Positions 47,769 through 55,814 of a DNA stretch of 64,000 nt are shown here, piece by piece. The notes beneath the pieces were generated by a model, which ran no database searches, was not told the DNA's origin, and was given only the letters and a program-made list of their open reading frames with translations. The position numbers and the translations under genes are program-made. The stretch comes from an uncultured Roseobacter sp. (GTDB lineage Bacteria; Pseudomonadota; Alphaproteobacteria; Rhodobacterales; Rhodobacteraceae), in assembly GCA_947501635.1 (NCBI GenBank), contig CANMWT010000005.1, positions 332,360 through 396,359 on the forward strand, given 5' to 3'. Position 1 is the first letter of the stretch, and every line of letters begins with the position of its first letter.

Positions 47769-48956
47769 TTGGCACGGACGCTAAACAAGTTGAACAACGC
47801 AACCGTCAAAGCGGCGGGCGCAGGTAAATACTCAGACGGCGGTGGCCTCTGGATTTACAAGAATGCCAATGGCGGCGCGAAGTGGGTGCTACGGTATTCG
47901 CTTTACGGTCGACGTCACGAGATGGGTTTGGGTGGATACCCTGAGGTCTCATTAAAAGAAGCCCGTGAAAGCGCAGAAGAGTGGCGGTTGGTTGTGCGGA
48001 AGGGCAAGGATGCCATTAAGGAACGCGAACGCCAGCGCCGTGAAGCTGAGCGAAACATGCACATTCTGAATGATGTTGCTATTGACGCCTTCGAGAGCCG
48101 CAAGGCGGAGTTGAAGGATGAAGGAAAAGCAGGCAATTGGTTCTCACCGCTTGAATTACATGTTCTGCCAAAACTAGGCAAAATGCCGATTACTCAGATC
48201 GACCAGCGCGACATACGCGACACGCTGGCTCCTATTTGGCACACCAAGGCAAGCACCGCGCAGAAGGCAATCGATAGGCTAGGGGTGTGTATCAAGCACG
48301 CCGCAGCGTTAGGCCTGAACGTAGACATGCAAGCTACGCAGAAAGCTAAGGCCCTTTTGGGCAAACAACGCCACACGGTTAAGCATATACCTGCAATGGC
48401 ATGGCAGGACGTGCCGCAATTCTATCAAAGCTTGAATGGCGGCGGTGTTGGTGAACTTGCGTTACAATTGCTCATCCTCACGGCGGCGCGGTCTGCCAAT
48501 GTGCGAAATCTCCACGAATACCACATCGACGGCGATGTGTGGACCATCCCCGCTGACGCCATGAAAGGCCGTATGGGTGCGACAACTGACTTTCGTGTTC
48601 CTTTGTCAGAGGAAGCACTGCGCGTCATTGAAGAGGCCCGCAAGATTTCGCGGGATGGCTTCTTGTTTCCTGGGGTAAGGCGGGGCGTACTCTCCGACAT
48701 GACACTGAGCGCATATATGAAACGCCGAGGCATTGAGGCGCGCCCCCACGGCTTCCGGTCTTCTTTCCGCGACTGGTGCGCTGAAACCACCAATACACCA
48801 CGTGAGGTCGCAGAAACGGCACTAGGGCATGTCAGTGGTAGCAGCGTTGAGCGGTCATACCGGCGAACAGATTATCTTGAGCAGCGGCGAACGCTGATGG
48901 AGCGGTGGGCTAAACATCTTCTAAAACCGAGGGCTGATGTGGCGCAAATCGCATGA
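47769..48956 (+). CDS. Tyrosine-type integrase with N-terminal DUF4102 arm-binding domain (TTG start)
   Basis: KYSDGGGLWIYKNANGGAKWVLRYSLYGRRHEMGLGGYPEVSLKEAR; R-H-R-Y catalytic pattern incl. HGFRSSFRDW, ALGHVSGSSVERSYRR. Confidence 0.94.
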   Translation: MARTLNKLNNATVKAAGAGKYSDGGGLWIYKNANGGAKWVLRYSLYGRRHEMGLGGYPEVSLKEARESAEEWRLVVRKGKDAIKERERQRREAERNMHILNDVAIDAFESRKAELKDEGKAGNWFSPLELHVLPKLGKMPITQIDQRDIRDTLAPIWHTKASTAQKAIDRLGVCIKHAAALGLNVDMQATQKAKALLGKQRHTVKHIPAMAWQDVPQFYQSLNGGGVGELALQLLILTAARSANVRNLHEYHIDGDVWTIPADAMKGRMGATTDFRVPLSEEALRVIEEARKISRDGFLFPGVRRGVLSDMTLSAYMKRRGIEARPHGFRSSFRDWCAETTNTPREVAETALGHVSGSSVERSYRRTDYLEQRRTLMERWAKHLLKPRADVAQIA

Positions 48957-49657: not shown

Positions 49658-49828
49658 ATGAACTACATATCGTTTAGCCAACTACAGGCAAAACTGGGCA
49701 ACCGTAGCAGAAGCTCAGTATACCGCGACCTTGAAGCGGGGCGTTTGCCACCGCCGGTCAAACTCGGGGCCAGACTTTATTGGCCTGAAGACGCAATCGA
49801 TGCTGCGATAGCAGACTTATCCAAATAA
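49658..49828 (+). CDS. AlpA/MerR-like excisionase-type DNA-binding protein
   Basis: MNYISFSQLQAKLGNRSRSSVYRDLEAGRLPPPVKLGARLYWPEDAIDAAIADLSK, typical AlpA pattern; ATG at 49658. Confidence 0.8.
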   Translation: MNYISFSQLQAKLGNRSRSSVYRDLEAGRLPPPVKLGARLYWPEDAIDAAIADLSK

Positions 49829-49830
49829 AA

Positions 49831-49942
49831 GCGACCCCCGCCCTGGGTTTAACCTTGGCGCAGGGGTCGCGGTATCCATTGCAGCGGATGCTCCAGACAT
49901 AACCCCTGCGCCTTTCCTAAACAACTGTTTTCGAAAGGAAAG
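49831..49942 (+). promoter_or_regulatory. Structured leader with mutually exclusive hairpins and a sequestered Shine-Dalgarno
   Basis: GCGACCCCCGCC...GGCGCAGGGGTCGC (49831-49870); GGCGCAGGGGT (49857-49867) also perfectly complementary to ACCCCTGCGCC (49902-49912); CTTTCCT (49912-49918) complementary to AGGAAAG SD (49936-49942). Confidence 0.55.
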
Positions 49943-49945
49943 CAT

Positions 49946-50122
49946 ATGAAGAACAGCAAAAATCCGATGTTGTCTGCTAATCCTGTTGTCAGTCCGACAG
50001 CCGAGATGATGGCGGAAAGACACAAAAACCACTTCCAGATCATGTACCTGCGCCGCCTGCACGGGCTTACAGAGGCCCAGGCACAAATGATGGCCATTCT
50101 GATTTGGGGAGGCCTGCAATGA
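49946..50122 (+). CDS. 58-aa unknown protein upstream of the replication gene (below ORF-track cutoff)
   Basis: MKNSKNPMLSANPVVSPTAEMMAERHKNHFQIMYLRRLHGLTEAQAQMMAILIWGGLQ; SD AAAGGAAAG; stop overlaps next ATG (ATGA at 50119-50122). Confidence 0.65.
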   Translation: MKNSKNPMLSANPVVSPTAEMMAERHKNHFQIMYLRRLHGLTEAQAQMMAILIWGGLQ

Positions 50123-52740
50123 AAGCGCAATTCGCACTGGAACACCCTTCAACGCCGCCGGTATTCTGCACCGGCTTCGGTCAGAATGATACACATGCCG
50201 TCACGCTGAGCGATGGTCGCACCAATCCACACCCGTCTGCAGGACATCCCTATGATACGATCACCGGCCCGGAAATCGTAGCGCTTGTGGAGCACCCGCC
50301 GAGCGTTGCGAAAGAACGTGCGCAATGGTTTATCCCGTCTGCCTATGCGCAGTCCGACGGGCGGAGTCACGAAGTCCAACAGGCGCATGGCGCGTTTTTC
50401 TGGCTGGCGCTCGATGTGGACCAAAACAACCTTTCCCTGAGCGAGGTCAGAGAGGCTCTGAACCTTGTTCTGGGTCCCTGCAGCATGGTGATCTATGCAA
50501 CCCGGTCGGCAACTCCAGATGCCCGCAAATGGCGCGCTCTTGTGCGCCTGAGGGAACCTCTGGCGGGGGCTGACTACAGCGATACGGTGGCGGCCTTCTA
50601 CGATCTTCTGGAAGAACAGACAGAAGGTGTGCTGATCTGTGACCGGGCGCTGGAGCGCACTGGTCAGCTGGTCTATCTGCCAAATCGGGGCGACTTCTAT
50701 GAATACCATGTTGAACGCGCCACACCGCTGGCTCTGACGCCTGACCACGCGGTCATCCAGCGCCGGGAAACAAACCGGGCCAGACGCTTACAGGCCGAAG
50801 TTGAAGCGCGGGCCGCGCGCGCCAGAAAAGCCGCACAGAGGCTGGAACGTGGCACATCGGACGACACCGATCCCGTGGTCCGCTTCAACGAAACGCACAG
50901 CATAGCCGATCTTCTGGAACGTTACGGATATACCCGCGGCGGCCATGGTAATGACTGGCGCAGCCCCATGCAGCAGTCCGGGAGCTTTGCGACGCGGGAC
51001 TATGGTGACCACTGGATCAGTCTCAGCGGTTCAGATGATGCTGCAGAAATCGGCGCGGCCTCGAAAAGCGGTCACCGGTTCGGAGACGCGTTCGATCTCT
51101 ATGTTTACTTCGAGCATGGGGGCGATCTGTCCGATGCCGTGCGCAGCTACGCGCAGGAAGCGGGGCTGGACGATCGCGTCGGGGCGTTCGCTTGGAAGCC
51201 TGAGCAACCCGCTTCTACGCCCGCAAGGGCGAACACGTCGGAAAAAAACAGCGGGCATGGCATTCTGCCATCCTCTGACTGGCCTGCGCCGTCTCCGGCA
51301 TTGTTGCGCCCCAGCCTGCCAGAACCGCCCGTGCTGCCCTTGATAGACATTCTGGGGCCGCGCGCGGCGGAATGGGTCAGTGCGACAGCTGAGGCAGCAG
51401 GCGCGCCTGCGGATTATGTGCTGAGCGCTCTCTTTGCCGCCGTCGGTGGTGTTATGGGCAACGCCAGATGGGTCAGCCCCTGGAAAGGCTGGACCGAGCC
51501 TCCGGTGATCTGGTCTATGTGTGTTGGTCTGCCCAGTGCGGGCAAGTCACCCGCGATAGATGCAGTTTTGTCCGGTGTCCGGCGCGCGGAAAAGCCCATG
51601 CGGACGCGCTCGAGTGCCGAGCATGAAGCTTGGGTAGAGCAACAAAAACTGGCGAAGATTGCCGAGCGGGCATGGGAAGCCAAATGCCGCAAAGCCATGG
51701 CCAAGGGGGCTGAACCACCGTCTCTGCCAGCAGAGGCGGAGGTGGGCCCGGAGCCGCATGTCCCGCGCCTCATTGTCAATGACGGCACAGTAGAGCGGAT
51801 CGGGGTCATTGCCGAGGCGCAGCCCAAAGGGGTCCTGCAGGTCCGTGACGAGTTGTCCGGCTGGTTGCTGACAATGGAAGCGCGCAACGGTGGATCTGAC
51901 CGAGCCTTCTGGCTGGAGGCCTATGGGGGGCGGTCGTTTACGGTGGAACGTATGGGGCGCAAGCCTCTAACCATCGACCGGCTGACAATCGGTGTGCTGG
52001 GCGGTATCCAGCCCGACAAGCTGAATGACCTTCTGATCAAGGCGTCAGACGACGGGTTGGTTGCACGCTTCATGCCGACATGGCCGGCACCGGCACCTGT
52101 GCGACGTCCTACGCGCTATGCAGATGATGCCGTCGCTGATGATGCCTGGGCGCGACTGGTGGCGCTGGACATGCCCGTTAATGAGGATGGCGAACCGCGC
52201 CCGTGGTTTGCAGGCTTTGACGATGGTGCAGCCGCGTTGATGGATGGATGGCGGCAGCAGTGCAGCGACTGGGAAACGGAGGCTGGAGGGCTACTGATGT
52301 CTCACATCGGCAAGTTCCCGGGGCTGGCCGCACGTCTGTCTTTGGTGCTGGCGGCAATCGACCACGCCTTTGACGGGGCACCACAGCCCAATACAATAAC
52401 GGTGTCCGAGTTCGGACGGGCCTGCCACTACATCGAGGCCTACGCGCTTCCCATGGCGCGCCGATGCTATGCAGGGGCTTCCGTTCCCGCCAGCGAGGCC
52501 GCGGCGCGGCGGTTGTTGGCGGTCATCCGGGAAGAAGGATGGCAGAGATTTACGACACGGCAGGTTATGCGTCAGGAGAGAGCTGCTCTGGGCACCAAGA
52601 ACAAGCTCGATCCAGCTTTGGCCGTTTTGCTTGAGGGAGACGTCATACGCCCCGCGGGCACCGCGAAAGACGAGCCCAAGGGCGGTCGGGCTGTGAAGGC
52701 CTATGAGGTCAATCCGGGGGTTCTGGGGGGGCGCAAATGA
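50119..52740 (+). CDS. Element replication protein: primase-like N-terminus plus DUF3987 ATPase/helicase-like domain
   Basis: N-terminal FFWLALDVDQNNLS...MVIYATRSATPDARKWRALVRLREPL (AEP-primase-like); DUF3987-like SMCVGLPSAGKSPAIDAVLSGVRR and LQVRDELSGWLLTMEA. Confidence 0.78.
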   Translation: MKAQFALEHPSTPPVFCTGFGQNDTHAVTLSDGRTNPHPSAGHPYDTITGPEIVALVEHPPSVAKERAQWFIPSAYAQSDGRSHEVQQAHGAFFWLALDVDQNNLSLSEVREALNLVLGPCSMVIYATRSATPDARKWRALVRLREPLAGADYSDTVAAFYDLLEEQTEGVLICDRALERTGQLVYLPNRGDFYEYHVERATPLALTPDHAVIQRRETNRARRLQAEVEARAARARKAAQRLERGTSDDTDPVVRFNETHSIADLLERYGYTRGGHGNDWRSPMQQSGSFATRDYGDHWISLSGSDDAAEIGAASKSGHRFGDAFDLYVYFEHGGDLSDAVRSYAQEAGLDDRVGAFAWKPEQPASTPARANTSEKNSGHGILPSSDWPAPSPALLRPSLPEPPVLPLIDILGPRAAEWVSATAEAAGAPADYVLSALFAAVGGVMGNARWVSPWKGWTEPPVIWSMCVGLPSAGKSPAIDAVLSGVRRAEKPMRTRSSAEHEAWVEQQKLAKIAERAWEAKCRKAMAKGAEPPSLPAEAEVGPEPHVPRLIVNDGTVERIGVIAEAQPKGVLQVRDELSGWLLTMEARNGGSDRAFWLEAYGGRSFTVERMGRKPLTIDRLTIGVLGGIQPDKLNDLLIKASDDGLVARFMPTWPAPAPVRRPTRYADDAVADDAWARLVALDMPVNEDGEPRPWFAGFDDGAAALMDGWRQQCSDWETEAGGLLMSHIGKFPGLAARLSLVLAAIDHAFDGAPQPNTITVSEFGRACHYIEAYALPMARRCYAGASVPASEAAARRLLAVIREEGWQRFTTRQVMRQERAALGTKNKLDPALAVLLEGDVIRPAGTAKDEPKGGRAVKAYEVNPGVLGGRK

Positions 52741-53069: not shown

Positions 53070-53526
53070 TGCCCGAAAAGAACCCATGCAACGACTGCTT
53101 TTACCAGAAACGGACGTTCGTTGCACTGTGGACGAGTGTCTCAGTTGCGGACGAAGCTGCCTGATGCTGACGCAGCAAAATGCGTCGCCGCGGGGCGGTC
53201 ACGTTGTTGAGCTTGTCGCCGGTTTCAGCCTGATTTCCGCAGAACTGCCATTTAAAAAACAGACAGTTTGCGTGTTAATTTACGATGCCGACAATGCTAT
53301 TAAGCTCGGTGCGGTTCAAGGCAGCTTGTAGTTTTATCAATAGCTGATCTTTCTCTTGCGAGGTTAGTCTTGTGCGTTAGGGCGGGACCAACTGCAACGC
53401 TCTTGAGAAACCTGAAAATACTGCTAATCTGTAATGACGAGTTTCGAGGATGTCGCGCACAGCTATGGGCGCAATCGTCTTTGTGAGGCTTTAAAACAGT
53501 TGAACATCTTTTTAGGAGGAAAACGG

Positions 53527-53631
53527 ATGGCTTGGAAGAAACCTACAGCGATAGAGATTTCGTGTGGCATGGAAATCAACATGTACGGCCCTGGCGAAGA
53601 CGACGAGCGTAGCGGTGACGACCTGTTCTGA
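53527..53631 (+). CDS. pqqA: PQQ precursor peptide PqqA (34 aa)
   Basis: MAWKKPTAIEISCGMEINMYGPGEDDERSGDDLF with conserved Glu-x3-Tyr (EINMY); SD AGGAGG; upstream of pqqBCDE. Confidence 0.92.
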   Translation: MAWKKPTAIEISCGMEINMYGPGEDDERSGDDLF

Positions 53632-53714
53632 AGAACGACTCAACTAAAAGCCTTTGAGCGTGACATTTTCAAATTGTCGAGTCTGTTCAAACGGCAATCT
53701 GAATTTGAACCAGT

Positions 53715-53744
53715 AAAACGACCGCATTTTGCGGTCGTTTTTTT
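53715..53744 (+). terminator. Intrinsic terminator between pqqA and pqqB
   Basis: AAAACGACCGCA-TTT-TGCGGTCGTTTTTTT. Confidence 0.85.
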
Positions 53745-54180
53745 GAAGTGTTCTTCAGTACCCTTTGTGGTCAATTAGGCTAGCACGCACTGGCCGCTCG
53801 AAAAGTGGTTATTGGGTTGACCAACCGCCGTCTTATCCAGTGTTTTTGGCAAGCAAATTGTTTAGAGCCCTCGATGCTCTAGGAAACCACATCACAGAAT
53901 GTATTGAAAAATGCTGCGAAGCTTTGACTTCAGCCGGACATACAAGCCAAGCTTTCGAGATAAAGGCAGCGCGTTAAACTGGGCTTGCTTCGGTACTGAC
54001 ACCTCGCAGTGGAAAGATTTAGTAAACAGCTTTACGATGGAAGAAGGCGTCAATCAGAGGCGCAATAGAAAATATTGATGACTTTGTGAAATCTGACATT
54101 CTAATTGTTTTGGCGCTGAACTTGAACAGAAATTACGAATATATTACAATGGATTACAAAGTTTTTGGAGGTGCTGCGAA

Positions 54181-55071
54181 ATGAAACTGGCTATACTTGG
54201 CGCAGGCGCAGGTGGCGGCTTGCCGCAATGGAATTGCGGGTGCGCAAATTGTCTCGATGCGCGCGCAGGTAAAATTGCCTCAATGACGCAATCTTCTGTT
54301 GCAGTGTCCGCCGACGGGGAACGGTGGGTTGTATTGAACGCGTCTCCGGACATTGCAGCACAGTTACAACGCACAAATGCCCTGTGGCCAAAATCTCTGC
54401 GCGGCACGCCCATTGCAGCCGTTGTTCTGACCAACGGCGACATTGACCATATCGCAGGCCTTTTAACGCTGCGCGAAAAGACTCCGTTTACGGTTTTTGC
54501 AACCCAAAGCGGCTTGGATATCCTAACGACAAACTCCGTCTTTAATGTCTTGGATTCTGAACTGGTTGAACGCAGTTTGATATCGGTTGATGAAACTTTT
54601 GAACCACTCTCGGATGTTAAGATCACGCCGTTCTCAGTGCCCGGTAAGGTCGCGTTGTTCCTTGAAGACGAGGAAGCTCTTGATCTGGAAGCTGTCGGAG
54701 ACCAAACAATCGGGCTTTTACTCGAAGTAAACGGGAAACGCGCGGCGTATGTCCCAGGGTGCGCGGCGTTACCAGATTGGTTGCTAACGCGACTTGAAGC
54801 AGTGGACTTGTTGCTGTTTGACGGTACTGTTTGGGAAAACGATGACATGGCAAAGACGGGTACTGGCCAGAAAACGGGTGCGCGCATGGGGCATATTCAA
54901 CTTAGTGGACATGACGGTAGCCTAGAACGGCTTGCTGCGGTTTCTGCTCGTAAAGTCTTTGTCCATATTAATAATACGAACCCGATTCTTCAGCCCGAAA
55001 GTGGTGAGCGCGCGCAGGTAGAAAGTGCTGGCTGGGAAATTGCTTATGACGGGATGGAGATAGAGCTGTGA
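54181..55071 (+). CDS. pqqB: Pyrroloquinoline quinone biosynthesis protein PqqB
   Basis: MKLAILGAGAGGGLPQWNCGCANCLDARAG; metallo-beta-lactamase-like fold motifs. Confidence 0.96.
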   Translation: MKLAILGAGAGGGLPQWNCGCANCLDARAGKIASMTQSSVAVSADGERWVVLNASPDIAAQLQRTNALWPKSLRGTPIAAVVLTNGDIDHIAGLLTLREKTPFTVFATQSGLDILTTNSVFNVLDSELVERSLISVDETFEPLSDVKITPFSVPGKVALFLEDEEALDLEAVGDQTIGLLLEVNGKRAAYVPGCAALPDWLLTRLEAVDLLLFDGTVWENDDMAKTGTGQKTGARMGHIQLSGHDGSLERLAAVSARKVFVHINNTNPILQPESGERAQVESAGWEIAYDGMEIEL

Positions 55072-55814
55072 ATCAGATGACATCGGACCGAGAAACCTTC
55101 GAGGCCCGTCTGCACAAGATCGGTGACGAACGGTACCATGATAAACACCCGTTTCATCATCTGTTACACTCTGGCGGTTGTACGCCTGACCAAGTACGCG
55201 CATGGGTGATCAACAGGTATTATTATCAGTCACGCATTCCGATGAAGGATGCGGCATTTCTTTCGCGCGTGACCGACCCTGCGCTGCGTCGGAGCTGGCG
55301 GCGCCGCATTGAAGACCATGATGGCACTGAGGAAGGCACGGGCGGAATTCATCGCTGGCTCAAACTCGCGGAGGGCGTCGGTCTTGACCCGGACTACGTG
55401 TCATCGGCGCGCGGTGTGTTGCCGGCAACCCGTTTTGCAGTGGATGCGTATGTTCGTTTTGTGCGTGACGAGCCGATGCTTCCCGCTGTCGCGTCTTCCC
55501 TCACAGAGCTCTTTGCGCCCAAAATCCACAAAGACCGGATCGCAGGCCTTCTACAACACTATGACTTCGCCAACCCTGATACAATTTCCTACTTTCAGCA
55601 TCGTCTGTCAGAGGCGCCAAAGGACGTGGCCTTCGGGTTGGGGTGGGTTCTTGAACATGCTGTAACCAAAGCGGATCAGGATGCGGCAGCTAACGCGCTG
55701 ATATTCAAGACTGAGGTTCTTTGGGCGCAGTTGGATGCACTCTACGCGGCCTACGTATCTCCTGCGCGTATCCCGCCCGGTGCGTGGCAGCCTGGGGAGG
55801 GACTTTTGCAATGA
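55068..55814 (+). CDS. pqqC: Pyrroloquinoline-quinone synthase PqqC
   Basis: YHDKHPFHHLLHSGGCTPDQVRAWVINRYYYQSRIPMKDAAFLSR. Confidence 0.97.
   Translation: MNQMTSDRETFEARLHKIGDERYHDKHPFHHLLHSGGCTPDQVRAWVINRYYYQSRIPMKDAAFLSRVTDPALRRSWRRRIEDHDGTEEGTGGIHRWLKLAEGVGLDPDYVSSARGVLPATRFAVDAYVRFVRDEPMLPAVASSLTELFAPKIHKDRIAGLLQHYDFANPDTISYFQHRLSEAPKDVAFGLGWVLEHAVTKADQDAAANALIFKTEVLWAQLDALYAAYVSPARIPPGAWQPGEGLLQ

Follow-up and report, generated by a model that had tools for sequence, protein, structure and literature searches.

A probable antisense-controlled switch in the leader RNA that separates AlpA-like and primase genes in Rhodobacteraceae

The window, the whole stretch of 64,000 nucleotides from an uncultured Roseobacter sp. 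that was analysed, contains a small integrative element in which a 117-nt leader lies between an AlpA-like gene and a 58-aa ORF, the first gene of the replication operon. The question raised by this locus is what the leader does for that operon and which RNA acts on it. A preliminary description of the sequence had read it as a leader of the satellite phage P4 type. The data below are best explained by a switch in the leader, controlled by an antisense RNA and acting on the replication operon, to which we assign a probability of about 0.68.

The element and its leader

The gene order is integrase, a 197-aa ORF, the AlpA-like gene, the leader, the 58-aa ORF, the primase/DUF3987 gene and a 110-aa ORF, followed by pqqA. 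The position of the leader between the AlpA-like and the primase gene, as first described, is borne out and is the same as in the synteny of P4. The features are listed here in order of position.

47769-48956, plus strand: tyrosine integrase (Pfam Arm-DNA-bind_3, Phage_integrase)
49658-49828, plus strand: AlpA-like excisionase/regulator of 56 aa, from profile matches
49823-49889, minus strand: predicted antisense RNA of about 67 nt, composed of P2', P1' and the U-run TTTTATTT (49830-49823)
49831-49842, plus strand: segment A, GCGACCCCCGCC
49831-49870: P1 hairpin, A with the B arm 49857-49870, from folds and covariation; its minus-strand counterpart would form the 3' hairpin of the antisense RNA
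49857-49867, plus strand: segment B, GGCGCAGGGGT, partner of A or C
49871-49892: P2 hairpin, from folds and covariation; 5' hairpin of the predicted antisense RNA
49896-49901, minus strand: predicted -10 box TATGTC, with a 17-nt spacer from the -35 box
49902-49912, plus strand: segment C, ACCCCTGCGCC, complementary to B at 11/11 positions and also within the spacer of the minus-strand promoter
49911-49942, plus strand: P3 hairpin, predicted to sequester the Shine-Dalgarno of the 58-aa ORF
49912-49918 and 49936-49942: CTTTCCT and AGGAAAG, arms of the third hairpin of the preliminary description
49919-49924, minus strand: predicted -35 box TTGTTT of the antisense promoter
49946-50122, plus strand: 58-aa ORF, first gene of the operon downstream of the leader
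50119-52740, plus strand: primase/helicase-like protein with DUF3987 (PF13148, 1.1e-59; PHROG 2373 DNA helicase)

The AlpA-like protein matches Pfam HTH_17 (1.5e-4), Phage_AlpA (3.8e-4, 20.7 bits against a cut-off of 21) and the PHROG 66 excisionase (3.4e-4). The stop codon of the 58-aa ORF overlaps the start of the primase gene (ATGA), which suggests that the two are translationally coupled. The 58-aa protein of the window has no Pfam, NCBIfam or PHROG match; its small-protein family, recognised by the motif RRLHGLTEAQA..IWG, has matches at E <= 0.01 in 28 of the 395 genomes searched in the order, frequently next to matches for AlpA and integrase, and is widespread directly before primase genes (window 49946-50122, L051-L079). 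Immediately downstream of the element come pqqA and further pqq-type genes (window 53434-55814). No flanking direct repeats of at least 14 nt, as att sites, were found around the element, and a scan of viral contigs with the primase found nothing. In many relatives a TGGAGCAC-like sequence is conserved just before alpA (TGGAGCA in 18/57), which is perhaps a ribosome-binding or operator site of alpA.

Folding and conservation of the leader RNA

The segments A, B, C, CTTTCCT and AGGAAAG had all been placed correctly in the preliminary description, and its claim that B is complementary to both A and C holds. Folded as 120 nt, the free leader RNA of the window has a minimum-energy structure of P1 (A:B, a single hairpin), P2 and P3, with P2, a small hairpin, being absent from the preliminary description. 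With A removed, the 11/11 helix B:C forms around P2. The third hairpin proposed over the Shine-Dalgarno is likewise predicted, in a slightly different register (49911-49916 with 49933-49938). The energy of -48.1 kcal/mol is 4.4-4.5 SD under that of dinucleotide shuffles, and the folding check called for at the outset puts the A:B/B:C complementarity far above chance (z = -4.4 to -4.5).

A search of 85,488 species genomes with an AlpA alignment recovered 80 loci, almost all in records titled Rhodobacteraceae. When the leaders are read from the alpA stop codon, at least 45 loci show the order P1, P2, C box, P3 and start codon. In most leaders the gap between this stop codon and P1 is 0-5 nt, and in the window segment A starts 2 nt after the stop. 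Across the family the free RNA is bistable, P1 being dominant in 36 of 57 leaders and B:C present in 23. Masking of the first 14 nt was used as a stand-in for a ribosome terminating at alpA: with A masked in this way, B:C is predicted in 57/57 leaders and the median predicted accessibility of the Shine-Dalgarno rises from 0.10 to 0.43, a partial opening which reaches 0.5 in 25/57, while masking of other stretches does not raise it. Masking the part covered by the antisense RNA gives a median of 0.00. The predicted values for the window are 0.01 for the free RNA, 0.73 with A masked and 0.01 with the antisense-covered part masked. The folds indicate that the leader RNA can switch between P1 (A:B) with P2 and P3 on one side and B:C enclosing P2 on the other, and from the masking results we infer that the antisense RNA would close, and B:C open, translation of the operon.

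Conservation of the A/B/C complementarity in related elements had been named as the test on which the proposal could fail; P1, P2 and B:C are conserved and covary, the two hairpins strongly. A covariance model was trained on 25 leaders with the window left out, and limited to the GACCC group, because a joint MAFFT alignment of the GACCC and CTTC groups misregistered the P1 stem. With this model the leader of the window scores 26.5 bits (E = 1.4e-4 over 563 kb). The model recovers 43 AlpA-linked leaders, almost all of which come from Rhodobacteraceae; within the 4.2-Mb host genome it matches three places only, all directly after an alpA gene, and in 296 genomes of the order it has eight matches, all of them alpA-linked loci already known. 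Additional downstream matches in L174 and L180 were discarded, as they lie in coding sequence and look like chance. Among the 43 sequences two-sided changes occur at all 19 pairs of P1, P2 and P3, including all 13 of P1 and P2. The covariation score of the whole structure is 0.459 versus 0.193 +/- 0.013 in shuffled alignments; slid partners give at most 0.151, a control which is biased because the covariance-model alignment was fitted to the structure. In the unfitted MAFFT alignment A3 the score is 0.269 versus 0.160 +/- 0.012. P3 is poorly aligned, being paired in 52% of cells of the covariance-model alignment.

The B:C pairing stands outside the covariance model. Its mean energy is -23.7 kcal/mol with a leader's own C, -22.6 with swapped and -16.5 with shuffled C, and 7 of 20000 permutations were as good as the own pairing, with relatedness uncorrected. 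The duplex of the window (-26.1 kcal/mol) is the best of all leaders and beats its B with 47 other C segments, its C with 47 other B segments and 2000 shuffles of C. Three positions of the window's C depart from the common C box, and the three compensating changes are present in the B of the window. In nine leaders of a second subtype, with other B/C sequences, the own C is preferred over each other's (p = 3e-4). By these comparisons compensatory change maintains B:C, the window being the clearest case; the specificity beyond the common C box rests on a minority of diverged leaders.

The host genome itself carries related copies. Searching the DNA of the genus turned up a second element there, whose alpA is 85-86% identical and whose leader differs in sequence and has the same layout. 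Besides that of the window, this genome holds two family leaders in all (G000:C4:419226-419341, L082, and G000:C21:37881-37996, L114), which each follow an alpA gene and have diverged A, B and C. The B of the window pairs at -26.1 with its own C versus -15.5 and -15.8 with the co-resident C segments. For the B of the contig C4 copy, by contrast, the C of the copy on C21 is an even better partner.

The opposite strand and the alternatives

On the plus strand of the leaders, conserved TCAA and CATA lie exactly one promoter spacer apart, and read on the minus strand they form a -35/-10 pair. The minus-strand pattern TTG-N20-TA, with a 17-nt spacer, occurs at a single fixed place in 53/57 leaders, where shuffles would give 4.2 and the plus strand gives 0/57; other TTG/TA spacings are found in 1-12 leaders of 57. 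The background is 10/57 in the regions upstream of alpA at the same loci and 4/38 in other AlpA leaders. This candidate sigma70-type promoter overlaps C and P3. In the window its two boxes agree with the consensus at 6 of 12 bases only, and a stricter scan found neither promoter nor terminator. Taking the start from the -10 box and the end from the U-run, the predicted antisense RNA has a fold of -33.0 kcal/mol (z = -3.7). Behind P1' the window has a strong U-run and many relatives a weak one, with at least 4 T of 9 in 40/57 leaders versus 39/57 on the plus side.

A-C on the plus strand corresponds to G-U on the minus strand. Clustered at 75%, the mismatches of P1 and P2 on the plus strand are 31 A-C versus 10 G-U, where column shuffles would give about 62 to 48; this excess of A-C moderately favours the minus strand as the source of the structured RNA. 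Choosing the strand by folding energy was abandoned: the minus strand is more stable, but composition explains the difference (z -3.3 vs -3.1). As the conserved promoter points the opposite way to the operon, an antisense RNA from the minus strand is the most likely candidate for the diffusible RNA.

In this antisense-controlled switch, the minus-strand promoter would produce an RNA of about 67 nt complementary to A, B and P2 and ending at P1. It would bind A and B of the leader, so that B could not pair with C; C and P3 would then stay closed on the Shine-Dalgarno, leaving the 58-aa ORF and the overlapping primase gene untranslated. Were the antisense RNA in short supply, or A covered by a ribosome at the end of alpA, B would pair with C, P3 would be weakened and the operon translated. 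The outcome would be copy control and superinfection immunity, as with the repABC ctRNA on plasmids.

Two other explanations are unlikely to about the same degree. One is immunity of the P4 type, in which a stable RNA is processed from the sense leader and its B pairs in trans with nascent A and C, terminating transcription, the minus-strand promoter being incidental. In P4 the CI RNA arises by processing of the sense leader and has seqA and seqC as its pairing partners (PMC4825925), and the complementarity of B to A and C, like the shared synteny, agrees with this; yet B is here locked in a hairpin with the adjacent A, no C4 or c4-a1b1 match is found, and the promoter at fixed spacing in 53/57 leaders and the wobble bias are left unexplained. 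A processed sense-strand seqB RNA, the effector first envisaged, is accordingly disfavoured: the promoter conserved in the leader faces the opposite direction, and A adjoins B instead of lying about 150 nt upstream. A sense-only version of the P4 CI system was dropped when the C4 model failed and the minus-strand promoter was found. No conserved sense promoter upstream of alpA was found across the family.

The other improbable explanation is an attenuator acting in cis only, in which the choice between A:B and B:C depends on whether alpA is translated, so that alpA and the downstream operon are coupled with no RNA in trans. It would account for P1 lying so close to the alpA stop in most leaders and for the turn to B:C in all 57 upon masking of A, and leaves the conserved opposite-strand promoter unexplained. 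An attenuator with translational control had also been offered in the preliminary description as an alternative, and its translational part fits better than a processed RNA of the P4 type. As to B:C as an intrinsic terminator, the plus-strand T-runs after C, judged by eye, are long in some relatives (e.g. the contig C4 copy) and absent in others; P1 as terminator of alpA was rejected, since no U-run stands consistently on that side. Somewhat less probable still is a role of the inverted repeats at the DNA level (operator or origin hairpins), or as simple terminators where transcripts converge, a reading which suits the almost strictly Watson-Crick P1 and P2, with little G-U on either strand, and the terminator-like P1' with its U-run in the window, but which does not require the B:C complementarity, the pairing of the Shine-Dalgarno in P3 or the fixed promoter spacing.

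The antisense-controlled switch may be taken a step further. Tentatively, and with rather less than even confidence, we suggest that two inputs are joined in the leader of an undescribed antisense-RNA family of AlpA-linked integrative elements: the antisense RNA would report copy number or co-resident relatives, and the ribosome terminating at alpA would open the switch, turning on excision and replication together, while diverged A, B and C in co-resident elements would define separate immunity groups. A literature search found no report of this leader RNA, most subscription papers being outside its reach.

Other AlpA elements, whose leaders are here called type II (e.g. L091, L116, L129, L078), have a strong hairpin, AAACCCCGG..CCGGGG, which lies within the next ORF or ahead of it and is followed by TTTT on the minus strand. 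In 13/23 the minus strand also has a -10-like box, 86-89 nt beyond the alpA stop. They are possibly a second type of antisense RNA.

Relation to known systems

P4, used as positive control, has a synteny like that of the window: the AlpA-family ORF88, c4-a1b1/isrK, the C4 (CI) RNA and the primase. As in P4 CI/C4 (RF01695, RF03163), one segment is complementary to segments of the leader upstream and downstream of it; in P4 the upstream target is about 150 nt away, whereas A of the window is next to B in one hairpin. The C4 model RF01695, which scores P4 itself at 74.9 bits, has no match in the window region at E <= 10, nor any in 16 relatives. P4-like satellites are marked by psu, sid and delta beside integrase, alpA, epsilon and alpha (PMC8628076); no matches to psu, sid or delta were found in the element, whose genes match integrase, excisionase and helicase families only. 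Of the P4-like leader first proposed, the mutually exclusive A:B and B:C and the hairpin over the Shine-Dalgarno are supported, and the identity with P4 CI/C4 is not, as no Rfam C4 match is obtained.

The nearest match in logic is, by analogy, the ctRNA of repABC plasmids (RF00489, ctRNA_p42d), an antisense RNA of Alphaproteobacteria encoded in the repB-repC gap; without it the leader forms a large stem-loop with the Shine-Dalgarno free, and with it another hairpin, which blocks expression (PMC3155836). The window and its relatives share a candidate antisense promoter in the leader of replication genes (53/57) and a predicted alternation of B:C versus P3 (in silico accessibility 0.43 vs 0.00). 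They differ in that the leader lies between alpA and the primase operon of a chromosomal integrative element, the predicted RNA has two hairpins, and the blocking hairpin looks translational, not like a terminator. RF00489 has no match at the locus, and no Rfam family reaches its gathering score in the window or the relatives searched.

In plasmids of the IncI-alpha/IncB type, the fold which frees the start site of the replication gene depends on an antisense RNA together with a ribosome standing at a stop codon upstream, and involves a leader peptide and a loop pseudoknot. The likeness to the window, compared by description only, lies in the antisense RNA and the ribosome at the upstream stop; the window differs in having an excisionase-like gene and a linear B:C helix.

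Given the lack of RF00489 and C4 matches and of psu, sid and delta, the leader is assigned to neither the repABC ctRNA nor the P4 family. Our best reading is that it works like the former and sits like the immunity leader of the latter, being a member of neither by the tests run.

If the antisense-controlled switch is true, satellite-like chromosomal elements of marine Rhodobacteraceae would use an antisense RNA of the plasmid type for their replication genes, with control by neither a protein repressor nor a processed CI RNA. By the predicted RNA an integrated element may silence its own replication genes, as low-copy plasmids do. The three diverged copies in one host genome would then represent an immunity code and, as a hypothesis, excision through AlpA would be linked to replication. 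The RNA family is absent from Rfam 15 and would mark such integrative elements.
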